Source of the DNA: Pseudomonadota bacterium
Lineage (GTDB): Bacteria > Desulfobacterota > Binatia > Binatales > Binataceae
Length of the DNA stretch: 64,000 bases
Assembly (NCBI GenBank): GCA_021324855.1
Contig: JAJPIG010000021.1
Span: 1 to 64,000 of the forward strand
Direction: 5' to 3'
This document shows positions 15,395 to 57,155 of this stretch, piece by piece; the stretch's first letter is position 1; each line of letters begins with the position of its first letter. The translations under genes were made by a program, and so were the position numbers. Under the pieces are notes generated by a model. That model was given only the letters and a program-made list of their open reading frames with translations. It ran no database searches and was not told where the DNA came from.

Positions 15395-15925
15395 CTACGC
15401 GAAATGGAAGCGGGTCGACAGCAGGTAGATCAGGCCGCCGACCATAATGACCAGCGCCGGATTGACGTGACGCCACAGCAGCATCGCGAACACGATGATC
15501 GCGATCGCCCCGCTGACCGCATCGATGACCGACAGCCGCGCGATCGCCATCGTACCCGCGAGCATCAGCCCGATCGCCACCGGCGCCATCCCGCGCTGGA
15601 TTGCCTTGCGCCACGGCGACGCGGCGAAATGGACCCAGAGACGATTGGCGAACAGCGTGAGCACGCAATCAGGGACGAAGAATGCGATGCCGACCACGAA
15701 GGCGCCCAGAAAGCCCGCGAGCTTGTACCCGATCAGCATGACCATCAGCATGTTCGGTCCCGGTGCGACCTGGCCGATGCTGTAAATCGAGCGGAACTGG
15801 TTGTCCGTGATCCAATGGTAGTCATGCACGGTCATCCGCTGCATCTCGGGCAGCACCGCCGTGCCGCCGCCGACCGCGCACAGCCCCAGCAAGGCAAAAA
15901 CCCAGAACAAGCTGAACAGCTTCAT
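15395..15925 (-). CDS. chrA: Chromate transporter, second half-domain
   Basis: One half of a short-chain CHR-family transporter pair that exports chromate. The 176 residues contain about six hydrophobic helices and the CHR signatures GGGTAVLPEM near residue 19 and QVAPGPNMLMVMLIGY near 52-67. Its start overlaps the end of the other half by 4 bases (15922-15925), as expected for translationally coupled antiparallel halves that form a heterodimer. Confidence 0.85.
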   Translation of the reverse strand: MKLFSLFWVFALLGLCAVGGGTAVLPEMQRMTVHDYHWITDNQFRSIYSIGQVAPGPNMLMVMLIGYKLAGFLGAFVVGIAFFVPDCVLTLFANRLWVHFAASPWRKAIQRGMAPVAIGLMLAGTMAIARLSVIDAVSGAIAIIVFAMLLWRHVNPALVIMVGGLIYLLSTRFHFA

Positions 15926-16563
15926 TGCCGCAACAACTCGTGACGCCGATGAAAATGTGGATGAGGCAGCTTCACTTCACGTTCGCCATGATGACTTCCC
16001 GGACGGTACATCCAGACCGCGAAGGGTCCGATTGTCAGCAACACGATGACCAACGACACATGAAAGAAAAATACCGCGACAAACGTTGCCGTCAGCAGGC
16101 TTAGATCGAGCCAGTGCGTGAACTGGCGATGCCCCAGTTGGACCGTGACGGTGGCGAGCAGTCCGACCGCGGCGGCCGCGACGCCGATCAGGAAACTCTT
16201 CACCAGGATGTTTTGATGCTGCTGCTCCCACAGCACGCCAAGCGTCATGACGATCAACGTCCCGGGCAACAGCATGCCCGCGACCGCCACTGCCGCGCCG
16301 ATCACGCCGCGCATCCGATCGCCGACCACCACGCTCAAGTTGACCGAGTTCAGTCCCGGCAACGTCTGGCTGATTTCGAGCGCGTCGAGAAATTCATCGT
16401 CGTTAAGCCATCCCTCGCTGCGCACCATGTATTCGCGCAGGTAGGCGACCACGCCGCCGCCGAAACTGATCGCGCCCGCCATCAGGAAGATCTTGAAGAT
16501 GTGGCCGAGGGTCGGGCGAGCCTCGGTTGTCGAAGTAACCGCCGCCGTTCCGGGTTCACTCAT
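15922..16563 (-). CDS. chrA: Chromate transporter, first half-domain
   Basis: The N-terminal type CHR half, 213 residues from ATG 16561-16563. It shows the family start SFGGGVVAYLREY, then QTLPGLNSVNLSVVVGDRMRG, and ends in a His-rich tail (HPHFHRRHE). The start overlaps the upstream CYTH-like gene by 8 bases; an earlier in-frame ATG at 16680 would lie inside that gene and adds no family sequence. With the 176-residue partner it makes a complete transporter. Confidence 0.85.
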   Translation of the reverse strand: MSEPGTAAVTSTTEARPTLGHIFKIFLMAGAISFGGGVVAYLREYMVRSEGWLNDDEFLDALEISQTLPGLNSVNLSVVVGDRMRGVIGAAVAVAGMLLPGTLIVMTLGVLWEQQHQNILVKSFLIGVAAAAVGLLATVTVQLGHRQFTHWLDLSLLTATFVAVFFFHVSLVIVLLTIGPFAVWMYRPGSHHGEREVKLPHPHFHRRHELLRQ

Positions 16564-17443
16564 GATTCGTGACTGGAATCTTGCCCAGGCTGTAGACCAG
16601 CGCTGTTTTGGTTGTGCCGGGCTGAATCCATTCCTCGATCCGGAGTTGCAATGTGCGGAAGAACTCTTCCGAGAGTTCACGCGGCTTGCGGCGCAACTCT
16701 TCGAGCCGCTCGAACTTCATCTGGAAACTGAACTCGCCGACCAAGTCGGCCTTCGTATGATGATTGCGCCAGATCGCGATGTTCGACTTGGCGAAGGTCT
16801 TGGAATCGAACTCCAGAATACCGAGATTCGCGAGCGTTTCATCGACCACCACGCCGTTGACCTCGCTGAGCCGGGTCTCGGCCTTGGCTCCGACCCTCAT
16901 CAGGGCCGGAAAGACCTGGCATATGGTTTCGAAGCGCTGGGTTAGGATCGTGTTCGGCGTGTCGAGCTCGCAGGCATGCGAGTAGATCGTGCGCAAGCCT
17001 CCGAGCTGGTTCGGCAGCGGCAGCAACTCCTCCTTGAACTTCACGGTGTTGACGCACGGCAGCAGCGGCCGAACGTCGACCGAGGCCGCGACCTCGCGAT
17101 GCGGGCTGCGCAGTTTGAGCGTAAGTTCGAAGTTCGGCTCGGGGCGGCCGTGGCGATAGAACGTCCGCTTCCGCAGGATGAAACTGTTATTGTAGAGGCG
17201 GAACTTGGGCGTATCGAGGAATACCACCTCGCGCAAATGCAGCGAGACCGGTTTCTCCGGCTTCGACATCGAGATGCCGAGGCTTTTGGCCGTGCGATGA
17301 ACGGCCTTCCAGAACTTGTGGAAGGACGACGGCTTGGTGAACAGCTCCGCCTTCAGCAGAATCTTGCACTCCCGATATTGAACGTCGTCGGCCCGCTCGA
17401 GCGGCACCGTGGCGATTTTGGAATGGGTCAGTGTTGCGCTCAT
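16556..17443 (-). CDS. CYTH/VTC-like domain protein
   Basis: A 295-residue soluble protein. The central part shows a tunnel-fold pattern: YRECKILLKAE, VFLDTPKFRLYNNSFILRKRTFY, FELTLKLRSP, and later KAETRLSEVNGVVVDET followed by LGILEFDSKTF and GEFSFQMKF. This is the E-x-K...LR-x-R...K arrangement of CYTH/VTC triphosphate-handling domains, though the match is distant. I use the ATG at 17443; the preceding 85 codons in frame are Arg/Ser-rich and non-conserved. It heads the leftward operon with the chromate transporter and isochorismatase genes. Function is uncertain. Confidence 0.55.
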   Translation of the reverse strand: MSATLTHSKIATVPLERADDVQYRECKILLKAELFTKPSSFHKFWKAVHRTAKSLGISMSKPEKPVSLHLREVVFLDTPKFRLYNNSFILRKRTFYRHGRPEPNFELTLKLRSPHREVAASVDVRPLLPCVNTVKFKEELLPLPNQLGGLRTIYSHACELDTPNTILTQRFETICQVFPALMRVGAKAETRLSEVNGVVVDETLANLGILEFDSKTFAKSNIAIWRNHHTKADLVGEFSFQMKFERLEELRRKPRELSEEFFRTLQLRIEEWIQPGTTKTALVYSLGKIPVTNHE

Positions 17444-49623: not shown

Positions 49624-52488
49624 TTAGGTTGCCGGGTTTTCGAGGTTCAGCACCTGCGCGAGATGGAGCGGCGCTCGGCTAGGGCAGAACTGTCGGATCT
49701 GAGTGCGGCAGGCGAAGCCGTCCGCTACAACGATTGTATCGGCTGCGCTTTTGTTGATCGCCGGGATCAGCACACGCTCGCCGATCGCGCGCGAGACTTC
49801 GTAGTGCTCGATGTCGTAGCCGAACGCCCCCGCCATCCCGCAGCATCCCGCATCCGGCACGTCGATTTTGAGGTCCGGACGGCGTTCCAGGACCGTGATT
49901 TCCGAATCAAGCCCAGTGAGCGCCTTCTGATGACAATGACCATGCAGCAGCACCCGACCGAGCGCAGTTGGGGGCGCGATCGACGGCGCACGGCGCGCGA
50001 TGAATTCGCCGAACGTCAGGACGCTGGCAGATAGCGCGCGCGCATCGTCGTCATGCGGAAAGTGGGCGGGAAGTTCGTCGCGAAACGTCAGGATACAACT
50101 CGGCTCCAGCCCTATGAGCGGCACGCCGCGCCGCGCGTACGGCGCCAACGCCGCGACGATTCGCTTCAGGTTGCGCCCGGCGCGCGTGAGCATCCCCTGG
50201 TCGTAGAGCGGCCGGCCGCAACACAGGTCTTCATTCGGCACAATCACGCTAAAGCCTGCGCGCTCGATCACGGCGACTGCGGCGATCGCGACTTCGGGCT
50301 CGAACAGATTGTTGAAAGTGTCGGCGAACATGACAACTTCCGGTCCTGAGGCCAGCTGCGCGCGACGCCTTCGGAACCAGTTTCGGAACGTCGGCTTCGC
50401 GATCCGAGGCAAACTGCGCGCGGGATGAACTCCAAGCCAGCGCCGTGCGATTCCACGCATCGCGCGTGACGCGAGCATTGCATTGCTTGCGCGCGGCATA
50501 ATCGTGGCGAGGCGCGCGAAATCGTGAATCCGGCCAAAAAAATGCGAGCTGAGAGGCCGGCGATGGGCCGCGAACCAGGCATCGAAAAACTCCGCCTTGT
50601 ATGCCGCCATGTCCACCCCCGACGGACATTCGGTCTTGCATGCCTTGCACGAGAGGCAGAGTTCGAGCGCCGACTTGAGCGCTGGATCAGTGAAGCCGCC
50701 GGGGAGCGCATCGCCGGTCAGCGACTCGAACAGGAGACGGGCGCGCCCGCGCGTCGAGTGGACTTCGTCGCGCGTCGCCATATACGACGGGCACATCGTG
50801 CCGCCATCGAGCTTGCGGCACTTGCCGATCCCCACGCATCGCATCGCAGCGCCCGCCATCCCGCCTTCAGCGCTGAAATCGAAATGGGTCGAAACTTCGC
50901 GCGCGTGATACGAAGGTCCGAGGCGCAAATGCGAATCGAGCGGGGCCGGGTCGACTATCACGCCGGGATTCATCCGCCCGTCGGGATCGAAGGCGCGCTT
51001 GAACTCACGAAATGCTTCGCTCATCTCCGCGCCGAAAATCTTCGGCAGCAGCTCGCTGCGCGCGATTCCGTCGCCGTGCTCGCCGGAAATCGAACCGCCG
51101 AACTCCGCGACCAATTCGGCGAGCGCTTCCATCGTGGCGCGGAACACGGCGACGCCGCGCGCGCTCGCGAGATCGAAATTGATCCGGCAATGAACGCATC
51201 CCTCGCCAAAGTGGCCGTAGAAAGATGCGGCAGTGAGCTGATGACGCTCGAGCAGCGCGGCGAGCCGGCGGAGATAAGCGCCCAATCGCGCCGGCGGCAC
51301 CGCGGTGTCCTCCGCGCCGGGCCATGTGCGGGGATAACCGGGAATGAATGCACTCGCGCCGAGTCCTGAACTGCGGAGACCCCACACGCCCTGCTGCTCT
51401 CGCGGATCGACGAGCACCACCGCGCCCGAGCATGCCGCGCTTTTCAGCGCTTCAGCGGCGATCGCTTCAGCGCGGCCGCGCGCATCGTCGCCGCCGGTTT
51501 CAATCGCGAGAAACGCGCGCCCTTCGGGCAGGAACTTCACGGCCGCGATCCCCCTGGCCCGCGCGAAATCCGGTAATCGATGGTCGAAGCCTTCGAGGGC
51601 TTCGGGCCGATGCTCAAGAATCCACGGTACCTGGTCGGCGGCGATGAAGACATCGTCAAAGCCGAGCACGGCCAGCGCGATTTTGCTCGGACGGGGAGTG
51701 ACCTCAAGTGTCGCTTTAAGTATGACCGCCAGCGTGCCCTCCGATCCGGCCAGCGCCCGCCCCGGATGGAATCCGTTTTCAGGCAGCAACCAGTCGAGGT
51801 TGTAGCCCGAAACGCGGCGCGGAATTTTCGGATAGCGGCGGCGGACGGGATCGCCGAACCGATCCCGAATCGCGATCAGCCGCGCATAAAGCTCGCCCTC
51901 GCGCCCGCTTGAGGACGCCGCGGCGGTCAACGAGGGTTCGCTCATCGCGCCGAGCTCGAGCCGCGTGCCATCATAAAGCATCACTTGAAGTGCATGCAGA
52001 TTATCGACGGTCTTGCCGTATGCGGCAGAGTGCGCGCCGCAAGCGTTGTTGCCGATCATCCCGCCGATCGTGCAGCGGTCGGCTGTGGTCGGATCGGGCG
52101 GAAAAAAGAGGCCGTGAGGGGCCAGGGCGCGATTGAGGTCCGCCTGAACAACACCGGGCTCTACAGTTACAAGACGCCGCTCGACGTCAATCTCGCCGAT
52201 TGCGCAAAGGTACTTCGAGAAGTCGAGCACCAGCGCAGCATTGCAGGTCTGGCCGCCGAGGCTGGTGCCGCCGCCGCGCGCCAGCACGGGGATTGAATTT
52301 TCCCGCGCGAGCTCAAGCGCCCGCGCGACGTCGCCCTCGTGGCGTGGGATGACCACGCCCAGCGGGATCTGCCGGTAATTTGAAGCGTCGGTCGAATAGA
52401 CCACCAACGCGCCGCGATCGAAGCGGACCTCGCCGTCGATCGAACGGCGCAACTCCGCTTCGAGCGGCCCGAGCGAGAAGCTCACCAA
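49624..52488 (-). CDS. FAD-linked oxidase fused to Fe-S protein (GlcD-GlcF / D-lactate dehydrogenase-like)
   Basis: A 954-residue fusion. Residues about 35-220 form the FAD-binding PCMH domain (VLARGGGTSLGGQTCN), about 225-530 the FAD-oxidase C-terminal domain (GSEGTLAVI, GEGCVHCRI, HGDGIARSELLPK), then two 4Fe-4S motifs (CVGIGKCRK... and CLSCKACKTECP) and a C-terminal CCG domain (CCGRPLYDQG; GCCGMAGAFG). Such proteins oxidise 2-hydroxy acids (glycolate, D-lactate, D-2-hydroxyglutarate). It lies directly after the FAH gene on the same strand. Confidence 0.86.
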   Translation of the reverse strand: MVSFSLGPLEAELRRSIDGEVRFDRGALVVYSTDASNYRQIPLGVVIPRHEGDVARALELARENSIPVLARGGGTSLGGQTCNAALVLDFSKYLCAIGEIDVERRLVTVEPGVVQADLNRALAPHGLFFPPDPTTADRCTIGGMIGNNACGAHSAAYGKTVDNLHALQVMLYDGTRLELGAMSEPSLTAAASSSGREGELYARLIAIRDRFGDPVRRRYPKIPRRVSGYNLDWLLPENGFHPGRALAGSEGTLAVILKATLEVTPRPSKIALAVLGFDDVFIAADQVPWILEHRPEALEGFDHRLPDFARARGIAAVKFLPEGRAFLAIETGGDDARGRAEAIAAEALKSAACSGAVVLVDPREQQGVWGLRSSGLGASAFIPGYPRTWPGAEDTAVPPARLGAYLRRLAALLERHQLTAASFYGHFGEGCVHCRINFDLASARGVAVFRATMEALAELVAEFGGSISGEHGDGIARSELLPKIFGAEMSEAFREFKRAFDPDGRMNPGVIVDPAPLDSHLRLGPSYHAREVSTHFDFSAEGGMAGAAMRCVGIGKCRKLDGGTMCPSYMATRDEVHSTRGRARLLFESLTGDALPGGFTDPALKSALELCLSCKACKTECPSGVDMAAYKAEFFDAWFAAHRRPLSSHFFGRIHDFARLATIMPRASNAMLASRAMRGIARRWLGVHPARSLPRIAKPTFRNWFRRRRAQLASGPEVVMFADTFNNLFEPEVAIAAVAVIERAGFSVIVPNEDLCCGRPLYDQGMLTRAGRNLKRIVAALAPYARRGVPLIGLEPSCILTFRDELPAHFPHDDDARALSASVLTFGEFIARRAPSIAPPTALGRVLLHGHCHQKALTGLDSEITVLERRPDLKIDVPDAGCCGMAGAFGYDIEHYEVSRAIGERVLIPAINKSAADTIVVADGFACRTQIRQFCPSRAPLHLAQVLNLENPAT

Positions 52489-53566: not shown

Positions 53567-54286
53567 TCATTGCCGATCGACGGCGTGATAACGCGCGTCC
53601 ACCTCGTTCCAATCGATCCGACCGAGGAATGCATCGACGTACGTGTCCCGGTCGCGATAGTCGATCGACCAGGCGTAGTCGGCGATGGCGCAGACCACCA
53701 GCGGATTAGCGCCGACCCATCCCCCGGCGTCGGACGCTCCCAGCGCTGCGTTATGCCATCGATCATCGTAAGGGTCGTAGACCAGCACCGCCCAAGTCTC
53801 GGCGATCCGCGCGCAGGCGGCGAAATCCTCGCGCCAACTCCCGAACGATCCCATATGCTCGTTGAAATTCGCCGTCACGTACTGCGGCGGCTGGACCCGC
53901 GTGGAAGCAAGGTTGCGAAAATAGAATTCGTGCAGCAGCACCGAGTTGGCGGCCTCGATCTGATCGCGTCTAAGCCGGGCGTACGCAACGCGATCGGCCG
54001 GCGCGCGCGATGCCGTCGCGAGCGAATGCTCGGCGGCGAGCAGATTCGCGAATGCATCGCGATAGACGGCGTAGGTCCGAGCGAGCTGGCGGCGCGAAAG
54101 AAAGCCGGGCAGCTCCCGCGGTTCAGGAGCAGGACGGCGCGGCTGAAATCCCGGTTGATGCTTGAGTAAGCCCTCGAACGAGAGTCCGGTCTCCTTAGGC
54201 GGCGTGGCGGCGAGCGCGCGGCCGGCGAAAGCGGCGCCCGCAAACACCATGGTTCCAAGCATCCGCCGGCGGCTGACCGGCTTCAT
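53567..54286 (-). CDS. Superoxide dismutase-fold protein with lost metal ligands, TAT-exported
   Basis: A 239-residue protein with a twin-arginine type signal (SRRRMLG) and a C-terminal Fe/Mn-SOD fold (VLLHEFYFRNLAS, GSFGSWREDFAACA, WAVLVYDP, LVVCAIADYAWSIDYRDRDTYVDAFLGRIDW). Of the four expected metal ligands only His119 is kept: the first-helix His is Thr71, and the DxWEH motif is AIADY, with Ala200 for Asp and Tyr204 for His. It is likely non-catalytic. It follows argC by 7 bases. Confidence 0.75.
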   Translation of the reverse strand: MKPVSRRRMLGTMVFAGAAFAGRALAATPPKETGLSFEGLLKHQPGFQPRRPAPEPRELPGFLSRRQLARTYAVYRDAFANLLAAEHSLATASRAPADRVAYARLRRDQIEAANSVLLHEFYFRNLASTRVQPPQYVTANFNEHMGSFGSWREDFAACARIAETWAVLVYDPYDDRWHNAALGASDAGGWVGANPLVVCAIADYAWSIDYRDRDTYVDAFLGRIDWNEVDARYHAVDRQ

Positions 54287-54293
54287 GATCGAA

Positions 54294-55349
54294 TCAGGGG
54301 ACCGGTGCGGTGGTCAGCAGCCCGGCAGTTTCGTCGAGCCCGAGCATCAGGTTGAGATTCTGCACAGCTTGGCCGGCGGCGCCCTTGCCGAGATTGTCGA
54401 TCGCAGTCAGCACGCAGAGCGTCTGGGTGCGACGGTCGAGCACGAACGAGAGTTCGCAGAGGTTGGTCGCGCGCACGTTCTTGAGTTCAGGCAGTTCCCC
54501 GGCCTTAAGCAGTCGGACGAAGCGCGATTTCGCGAAACTTGCCTCGTATGCGGCTCGGACATCGGCTTCGGTGGTGCCCGAGCGCGGCCGCGTGAAGATC
54601 GAGGTGAGGATTCCGCGCGTGACGGGAAGCAGATGCGGTACAAACAGCACCGCGACGTCGCGTCCGAGCGCCGCGCCGATCTCCTGCTCGATTTCCGGTG
54701 TATGGCGGTGGTTGCCGACCTTGTACGGCCGGAAATTCTCGTTGACCTCGGCGAACAACTGTTCGATTTGGGCGGCGCGCCGCGCACCGGTCGTGCCGGA
54801 CTTCGAATCAATCACGATCCACGATGGGTCAATCAGGTCGCGCTTGATCAGCGGAAGCAGACCGAGCAGCGCGCCGGTCGGGTAGCATCCGGGATTCGCC
54901 ACGAGCCGCGCCTCGCGGATCTCATAACGATGGAATTCCGTCAGCCCGTAAACTGCTTCGCGGAGCAGGGCAGGCGCCGGATGTTCCGCGCCATAAGTCG
55001 CCCGATAGACGGCCGGCTCGCGCAGGCGAAAATCGGCCGAAAGATCGATCACCTTCAGACCGTCGGCTGCGAATTGCGCCACCAGCGGCGCGCCGACGCG
55101 CTCCGGCAGGCACGAGAGCACCGCTTCCGCGCGTCCCTTGAGCAGGTCGGGCCGCAGTTCCTCGAACGGCGGCAGGTCGAGGCCCGCAAGATGCCGATAG
55201 ACGTGAGCGACCTCGCGCCCGGCGTAATGCTCGGACGTGAGCACGCTCAACTCGGCCATCGGATGACCGGCGAGGATCCGCACCGCCTCGATTCCCGAAT
55301 AGCCCGAAGCCCCGAGAATCGCAACTTTGACGCGCCCCGTCGCCGCCAT
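54294..55349 (-). CDS. argC: N-acetyl-gamma-glutamyl-phosphate reductase ArgC
   Basis: The third step of arginine biosynthesis, 351 residues. The nucleotide motif is GASGYSGIEAVRIL at about 13-26 and the catalytic Cys is in VANPGCYPTGALL; HRHTPEIEQE follows. It starts at ATG 55347-55349. In several deltaproteobacteria argC directly follows rpsI; here Rieske oxygenase genes and vanZ separate them. Confidence 0.9.
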   Translation of the reverse strand: MAATGRVKVAILGASGYSGIEAVRILAGHPMAELSVLTSEHYAGREVAHVYRHLAGLDLPPFEELRPDLLKGRAEAVLSCLPERVGAPLVAQFAADGLKVIDLSADFRLREPAVYRATYGAEHPAPALLREAVYGLTEFHRYEIREARLVANPGCYPTGALLGLLPLIKRDLIDPSWIVIDSKSGTTGARRAAQIEQLFAEVNENFRPYKVGNHRHTPEIEQEIGAALGRDVAVLFVPHLLPVTRGILTSIFTRPRSGTTEADVRAAYEASFAKSRFVRLLKAGELPELKNVRATNLCELSFVLDRRTQTLCVLTAIDNLGKGAAGQAVQNLNLMLGLDETAGLLTTAPVP

Positions 55350-55430: not shown

Positions 55431-55949
55431 TTATGGCGGCACGACGATCGCTTCATTCGGCAGGAAGCTCTCAAGGATCGCGAGCCGATCCTTGATGCGC
55501 CAGCGCCCGTCGCTCGCGATGAGTTTGTCCTCGAGCACACAGGCCATGTGCAGGTTGGTCCGGCCCTCGGCGTCGGTTTGATAGACGATCAGGTTCGACT
55601 TGGCGAGGGCAGTCTGGGGGTTCGGAAAATCGACCATCACGTTGGAAAGCATTCGCATTTCGCGGAAGCGCTCGTAATGCCAATGCTCTGTGATGAGCTT
55701 GGTGCGATAGAGCAGGCGGCGCTTGTCGTCATCGATCACGTGGACCGGCAGATGGCGCTCGTAATTGTCACGCGGTATAAGCCGATAGCTGCCATCGTCG
55801 GTGAACTCGTCGACGAAGCCTTGGACATCGAAGTCATCGAGCATCCGGCAGAGTCGATGCAGATAGGCGACGACCGCTTCTTTTTTGAGTGCGAACTCGG
55901 GATCGACGCGCAATAACGCCGCGGCGCTAATAGTCGTTTCTGAACCCAT
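55431..55949 (-). CDS. Aromatic ring-hydroxylating dioxygenase, beta subunit
   Basis: The small structural subunit (172 residues, NTF2-like fold) of a Rieske dioxygenase. Family blocks include EAVVAYLHRLCRMLDDFDVQGF, and LYRTKLITEHWHYERF, then SNLIVYQTDAEGRTNLH. It lies 15 bases after the alpha subunit gene and forms an alpha3beta3 enzyme with it. Confidence 0.87.
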   Translation of the reverse strand: MGSETTISAAALLRVDPEFALKKEAVVAYLHRLCRMLDDFDVQGFVDEFTDDGSYRLIPRDNYERHLPVHVIDDDKRRLLYRTKLITEHWHYERFREMRMLSNVMVDFPNPQTALAKSNLIVYQTDAEGRTNLHMACVLEDKLIASDGRWRIKDRLAILESFLPNEAIVVPP

Positions 55950-55964
55950 CGCCGGACTCCGCGC

Positions 55965-57155
55965 TCAGGCGGTCATCGCCTCGAACCAGCCCTCGTAGAA
56001 ACCGCGCAACGAAACTTCCTCGGTCAGGTCGCCTTCGCTCGCATGGAGATCGCCGCGCAGCAGGATGGTCTTGGTGTAATGGGCGGGTGCGCCAGCCTGC
56101 GCCGCCTCCATCACCAGCTTGTCATCGAGCGAGGCGGCGCCCGCGATACCGAACTGCGCGCTGACGACGAGCGCGCGATGGCGCTGAAGCTCCTCGGACT
56201 CGCCCTGGACCGCGAGGTTGTACGTGATCACGTCGACTGCCGTGGGACCCCGCGGAATCACCTGGCGCACAGTCAGGATGTCCTCGATTTGCAGCAGCAT
56301 CGTATTCGGAAAGACGTCCGTGACGTAGTTCCAGCCCTCGTTGCGGCTGCGGCACGCGGTGAGCGGCAAATCCTGCGCGGGATCATAGGCTGCCGCGCGT
56401 GTTACGGGCCATTGCAAAAAACCGTGGCCATGCGCGAATTTCCCGCTCTTTCCCACGCCCGGACGATACGCGTAGCTGTTGCGATCGAGCATGATCGGCA
56501 TGTGCAGCAGGCCCGGATGATAGCCGTCGATGGTGTTCTCGACAAACAACTTCCAGTTCGATTTAACGTGATAGCGCTGGAACCCGAGGAAGACGACCTT
56601 GCCCTCGTGCATGACCTCGCGGGCATAGGGCGCGAATCCGCCGAGATAATTTTCGAGCGGCATGATTTCCGGATCATACGAGGCGTAAATCAGCCCGGCG
56701 AAGCATTCGACGCGCGGCAGTTCCGGGATGGAGTAATTTTCCTTGTTGAACGAAGAACTGTAGCCCTGCGCGAGCGGCACGCCGAGCAGGCGTCCATCGA
56801 GCGCGTAGGTCCATTGGTGGTACATGCACTTGAAGGCCTGTGCGTTACCGCTGCTTTTGCGCACGAGCTTCGTTCCGCGATGGACGCATACGTTCTCGAA
56901 TACGCGGATACGACCCTGGAGATCGCGCACCACGACGACCGGAACCTCTCCGATGTAAGTGGTTTTGAAGTCGCCCGGATTAGGCAGCTCAACTTCGAGT
57001 CCGACAAGCACCCAGAGCCGGCCGAAGATTTTCTCGAGTTCGAGGCGGTAAATATCAGGATCGGCGTGAATGCGATGGTTCACCGCGATGACGCTACCTT
57101 GGAGATCGCGCGTTATGTACCCAGCTGGATCGGTTCCGTTCTCCCCGTTTTGCAT
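55965..57155 (-). CDS. Aromatic ring-hydroxylating dioxygenase, alpha subunit
   Basis: A 396-residue Rieske oxygenase large subunit. Rieske ligands: Cys90-x-His92 and Cys110-x2-His113; mononuclear iron ligands Asp210, His213 and His218 ([12 protein letters not shown]). It pairs with the beta subunit immediately downstream. No reductase or ferredoxin gene is near. It resembles benzoate/anthranilate-type dioxygenases, substrate unknown. Confidence 0.87.

Follow-up and report, generated by a model that had tools for sequence, protein, structure and literature searches.

SODL, the name used here for a gene in the window (the whole 64,000-nucleotide stretch of DNA that was analysed) and for its product, is best read as a pseudoenzyme branch of the Fe/Mn superoxide dismutase (SOD) family, which is related to ChrC and displays an unusually clear series of intermediates. 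The leading explanation, to which a probability of about 0.6 is given, is that SODL is an exported non-catalytic pseudo-SOD that descended from a four-ligand ChrC-like SOD and now works through binding surfaces. The original prediction had described the protein as a non-catalytic SOD homolog, and this description is well supported by sequence, as the metal ligands vary within the window's family and 49 other residues are invariant. On these grounds SODL probably lacks SOD activity, and a binding or scaffold role would be the most likely one. Because intermediates stand side by side in one bacterial family, the timing and cause of the loss of SOD function, and the reuse of the fold, become testable.

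Fold, export signal and metal ligands

The SOD fold that had been proposed for the C-terminal part of the protein was confirmed. Sod_Fe_C was the only Pfam match of SODL (E 2.8e-10, above its cut-off), and Sod_Fe_N gave no Pfam match at E<=1. The NCBIfam SOD models stayed far under their cut-offs, with the best one reaching 75 bits where 300 are required. By sequence, the Aquifex pyrophilus Fe-SOD 1coj is the closest relative with a solved structure (E 2.6e-13). Structure prediction had been suggested as a check on the original prediction, and an AlphaFold2 model based on 12 aligned sequences reached a pLDDT of 81.1 and a pTM of 0.75, with residues 15-42 below a pLDDT of 50. The model matched Fe/Mn SODs in Foldseek at E 1.4e-11 and aligned with solved SODs at Z up to 23.0 and an rmsd of 2.0 over 188 residues. 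Since this alignment covers residues 45-238 and with them both SOD domains, SODL does contain the helical hairpin domain that Pfam fails to recognise, and it has the two-domain fold of Fe/Mn SODs. Automatic annotation as 'superoxide dismutase' based on the C-terminal domain alone is unsafe.

The N-terminus, MKPVSRRRMLGTMVFAGAAFAGRALA followed by A, resembles a Tat signal with an A-x-A cleavage site, in which the twin-arginine sequence SRRRML precedes a hydrophobic stretch and then ALA, with the putative cut before the next A. The twin-arginine signal claimed for this protein was upheld by the alignment, where the arginine pair occupies the same position of the signal in all 14 distinct orthologs, and by the presence of TatC in the host genome. 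As judged from its signal, SODL is probably destined for the cell envelope. The segment that follows contains the invariant residues P30, E32, G34, L35, E38, G39, L40, L41, G46, F47, P49 and R50.

Ordinary Fe/Mn SODs bind their metal through four ligands (His, His, Asp and His), and at these positions SODL has T71, H119, A200 and Y204. The claims that three of the four ligands were lost and that His119 is the last one in the window protein were both borne out by the alignment. The D-x-W-E-H motif reads A200-I-A202-D203-Y204 in SODL, so that the Trp of the motif is replaced too. The position of the first ligand was taken from the ungapped LSxxQL segment, which gives His there in four members; this reading was used in place of one MAFFT alignment that put a gap in the first helix. 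The second-shell Gln or His that stands next to the metal-bound solvent is missing, with Ser at the aligned column in SODL. The host genome encodes a separate four-ligand SOD that carries no signal and can cover the ordinary enzyme function. The features are collected in Table 1.

Table 1. Features of the SODL locus, in window coordinates
Feature	Position	Strand	Basis and remarks
argC, N-acetyl-gamma-glutamyl-phosphate reductase	54294..55349	(-)	TIGR01850, E 1.2e-119; order same in L001, L004 and L019
SODL, SOD-fold pseudoenzyme gene, 239 aa	53567..54286	(-)	Intact ORF; Pfam Sod_Fe_C; orthologs at 51-68% identity
Tat-type signal peptide, residues 1-26	54209..54286	(-)	RR invariant in 14/14 distinct members; TatC in genome; putative cleavage site
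Conserved N-terminal segment, residues 28-50 (TPPKETGLSFEGLLKHQPGFQPR)	54137..54205	(-)	Mostly low confidence in model
T71, first-ligand position (His in ordinary SODs)	54074..54076	(-)	Alignment; T/S/I/A/N in window's family, H in 4/5 other members
H119, sole ligand left (context LLHEFYF)	53930..53932	(-)	Alignment; Tyr in ortholog L019
EHMG, residues 143-146, invariant	53849..53860	(-)	Alignment; DNA checked
YDPYDDRWHN, residues 170-179, subfamily motif	53750..53779	(-)	First two strands of C-terminal sheet
A200, Asp-ligand position	53687..53689	(-)	Alignment
Y204, last-His-ligand position	53675..53677	(-)	Alignment

The subfamily and its metal site

Searches of species genomes placed SODL in a subfamily of 14 distinct proteins from one class of uncultured bacteria, whose metagenome-assembled genomes (MAGs) are labelled Deltaproteobacteria or Proteobacteria. 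In the tree, these proteins form one clade of their own (support 100/100), separate from ChrC and from ordinary SODs. A scan of six SODL peptides, including YDPYDDRW, over 84,980 species found 11 relatives, all of them in MAGs with these two labels. For a view beyond the class, 395 genomes of the phylum were sampled. A score at subfamily level (about 400 bits) was obtained only in G000 and G004; the matches in the remaining genomes are SOD homologs of other kinds and scored 123 bits at most. Within the window's family, 7 of 35 genomes have an ortholog. This presence is patchy, and the role of the gene is therefore dispensable. A viral or phage origin was considered and rejected, as no phage record and no PHROGs entry matched SODL; the only matches from the viral structure library were two phage SODs.

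From residue 44 on, 49 columns are invariant in all 14 members. The sequence YDPYDDRWH is identical in every member, and the motif is absent from the other SODs that were aligned. In the model, it coincides with strands at residues 165-171 and 176-182. A search for orthologs with the same replacements had also been suggested; it revealed identical or equivalent replacements in further members, as well as relatives in which all four ligands are intact.

The five members that belong to other families of the class (L006, L007, L008, L010 and L011) retain the Asp/His pair, and four of them also retain the first His, with Asn in L008. Across the nine members of the window's family, the residues are TSIANNANS at position 71, AAAADDADA at position 200 and YYAEHHEHS at position 204. 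The pair is kept in L004, L005 and L017 and is gone in the other six. All four ligands are lost in L019, and H119 is kept in 13 of the 14 members, a persistence that would fit some metal binding. These changes are read as losses because outgroup SODs carry four ligands. When columns 71, 200 and 204 were left out of the tree, it implied at least two independent losses of the Asp/His pair and at least two of the helix-1 His. The grouping of L019, which has lost the pair, with its sister L004, which has kept it, is supported at 100/99.

A further difference lies in the second-shell column, which has His in ChrC, in halophilic archaeal SODs and in related SODs. The alignment shows no His at this column in any of the 14 members; the five members from other families all have Asp there, and the residue varies within the window's family, with Gln in L017 only. 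The Trp position of DxWEH is A, G, S or Y across members. The state of the second-shell column suggests that the members with four ligands, too, probably differ from ordinary SODs.

Gene neighbourhood

Seven bases separate the stop codon of the upstream argC from the ATG of SODL, as the original prediction had stated; the gap was verified in the DNA, and the TIGR01850 match identifies argC. The two genes are probably co-transcribed. In L004, the likely GTG start of the SODL gene overlaps the argC stop, which suggests that SODL is translated from the argC transcript. The same prediction had called such a protein just after argC unusual, but the argC neighbourhood is not specific. Adjacency of argC and SODL was found in only two genera (4 genomes), where the order is rplM-rpsI-(dioxygenase)-argC and then SODL. 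In the other members, the gene upstream is rnhB or the neighbours are unrelated, ligand-keeping relatives often lie beside chromate-resistance genes, and no gene is common to all SODL loci examined. A functional link between SODL and argC as a general feature was therefore rejected. Two other observations concern this region. A Rieske-type ring-hydroxylating oxygenase alpha/beta pair lies between rpsI and argC (window 55431-57155); it is also found in L001 and is absent from this place in L004. In addition, a 954-aa ORF (window 49624-52488) looks like a fusion of an FAD-linked oxidase with an Fe-S (GlcF-like) domain and has a homolog near the SOD-fold gene in L004.

The relatives outside the window's family are placed differently. 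In L010, the order is DUF1259, chrA and SODL, with about 30 bases between chrA and SODL. In L007, chrA and DUF1259 lie upstream of SODL, and L006 has chrA, a ChrB gene and a second, ChrC-like SOD next to its SODL gene. In genome coordinates, chrA is within 3 kb of SODL in G046, G078 and G087, and these genomes have one or two full-length chrA genes per 4-6 Mb. Such proximity in three of five cases is very unlikely to arise by chance (rough estimate below 1e-6). The chrA or chrB adjacency typical of ChrC is thus found at L006, L007 and L010 and is absent from the SODL locus of the window, and the chromate link is gone in the window's family, which has argC or other neighbours instead. The window does contain a pair of short-chain CHR (chromate-transporter) genes, encoded on the minus strand (window 15395-16680), but this pair lies 37 kb from SODL and is unlinked to it. 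Genes for DUF1259 and PepSY proteins repeatedly accompany chrA and SOD-like genes, at L010:3782-6726, L007:3035-6699 and L006:1709-6708. Plasmid ChrC clusters contain DUF1259, PepSY, ChrB and chrA genes in varying sets. On proteobacterial plasmids, as in the loci studied here, the DUF1259 and PepSY genes thus seem to belong regularly to chromate clusters. In the ChrC-like SOD by chrA in L006 (1709-2281), the helix bearing the second ligand His is missing in frame, and the sequence at this place reads FVYADLGGDG; the protein may be another degenerate SOD, or the assembly may contain an error.

Competing readings and comparison with known systems

The preferred reading of SODL as a non-catalytic pseudo-SOD can be put as a sequence of steps. 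The ancestor would have been an SOD of the Fe/Mn type with four ligands, similar to the ChrC-type SODs that chromate operons encode and that are exported through Tat. Second-shell residues required for ordinary SOD chemistry would have been lost first, in the subfamily, and the window's family would then have lost ligands, the helix-1 His first and the Asp/His pair later and more than once. The present protein is predicted to be exported in folded form through Tat, to hold no catalytic Fe or Mn and to act through its invariant surfaces, namely the N-terminal PxExGLxxEGLL...GFxPR, EHMG, the YDPYDDRWHN hairpin and the C-terminal RYxxVDR. Its most likely action would be the binding of a partner protein or a small ligand in the envelope, with the N-terminal segment, which the monomer model leaves unplaced, and the YDPYDDRWHN hairpin as likely contact surfaces. 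Somewhat less than an even chance is given to the broader statement that this Tat-exported subfamily still displays the stages between an intact four-ligand site and its full loss and that a new conserved surface (YDPYDDRWHN with the N-terminal segment) took over a different function, perhaps the binding of a metal oxyanion or an envelope partner.

The main rival is that SODL is still a metalloprotein, with a new site made from E143, H144, D171, D174, D175 and H178 that perhaps holds a metal other than Fe or Mn, or an oxyanion. These six residues are invariant in 14 of 14 members and four-ligand relatives adjoin chrA in three genomes, yet such residues may equally be conserved for the structure of the hairpin, and several other invariant residues (P172, W177, W190 and G192) cannot be ligands. 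This reading of the conserved residues is considered unlikely, though it deserves more weight than the other two. It would be far less probable that SODL has kept SOD activity because other residues, such as T71, Y204 and D203 together with H119, serve as ligands in the old pocket. The fold and H119 are indeed retained, but the replacements differ freely among close relatives (Y, A, E or S at position 204), members whose ligands are intact lack the second-shell Gln or His as well, and none of the four ligands is left in L019.

The third possibility is that the gene is in decay, as a chromate-linked SOD whose use was lost in this lineage and which is drifting to loss. Patchy presence and several independent ligand losses would agree with decay, as would the fact that, in the window's family, neighbours are conserved in two genera only. 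However, no reading frame is broken in any of the 14 members, and the Tat-type signal and YDPYDDRWH are unchanged. In all pairs compared, pN/pS is 0.27-0.37, with synonymous sites partly saturated, and it is about 0.3 even between relatives without the site (0.30 for the window and L001, 0.27 for L003 and L009). Purifying selection of this kind, together with intact frames and 49 invariant columns, points to a maintained protein and argues against a pseudogene; decay is thus improbable.

Fe/Mn SOD-fold pseudoenzymes seem rare. None was found in one search of the open-access literature, and to our knowledge the only precedents are parts of mitochondrial ribosomes. The mitoribosomal proteins mS42 and mS43 (Rsm26 and Mrp1 in yeast) are non-catalytic SOD-fold proteins that serve as structural parts of the ribosome. 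They are eukaryotic and ribosomal and offer a precedent only; they were not among the structure matches listed for SODL, which is no evidence against a similarity. The archaeal and Aquifex-type Fe/Mn SODs (1coj and 1ma1) align with SODL over the whole fold at Z of about 22. In contrast to SODL, they are catalytic and have four ligands, and nothing in the aligned part corresponds to the Tat signal and N-terminal segment of SODL.

The nearest named plasmid relative of SODL is ChrC, with 32.5% identity over 161 aa. The ChrC of Ochrobactrum tritici (TnOtchr) is a proven Fe-SOD that is predicted to be periplasmic (PMC4779226). ChrC proteins, including that of Cupriavidus metallidurans pMOL28, share the SOD fold with SODL, and several, not all, of the plasmid ChrC proteins carry a Tat-type signal as SODL does. 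Unlike SODL, ChrC retains the four ligands and the second-shell His, whereas the YDPYDDRWHN motif and the N-terminal extension distinguish the SODL subfamily from ChrC.
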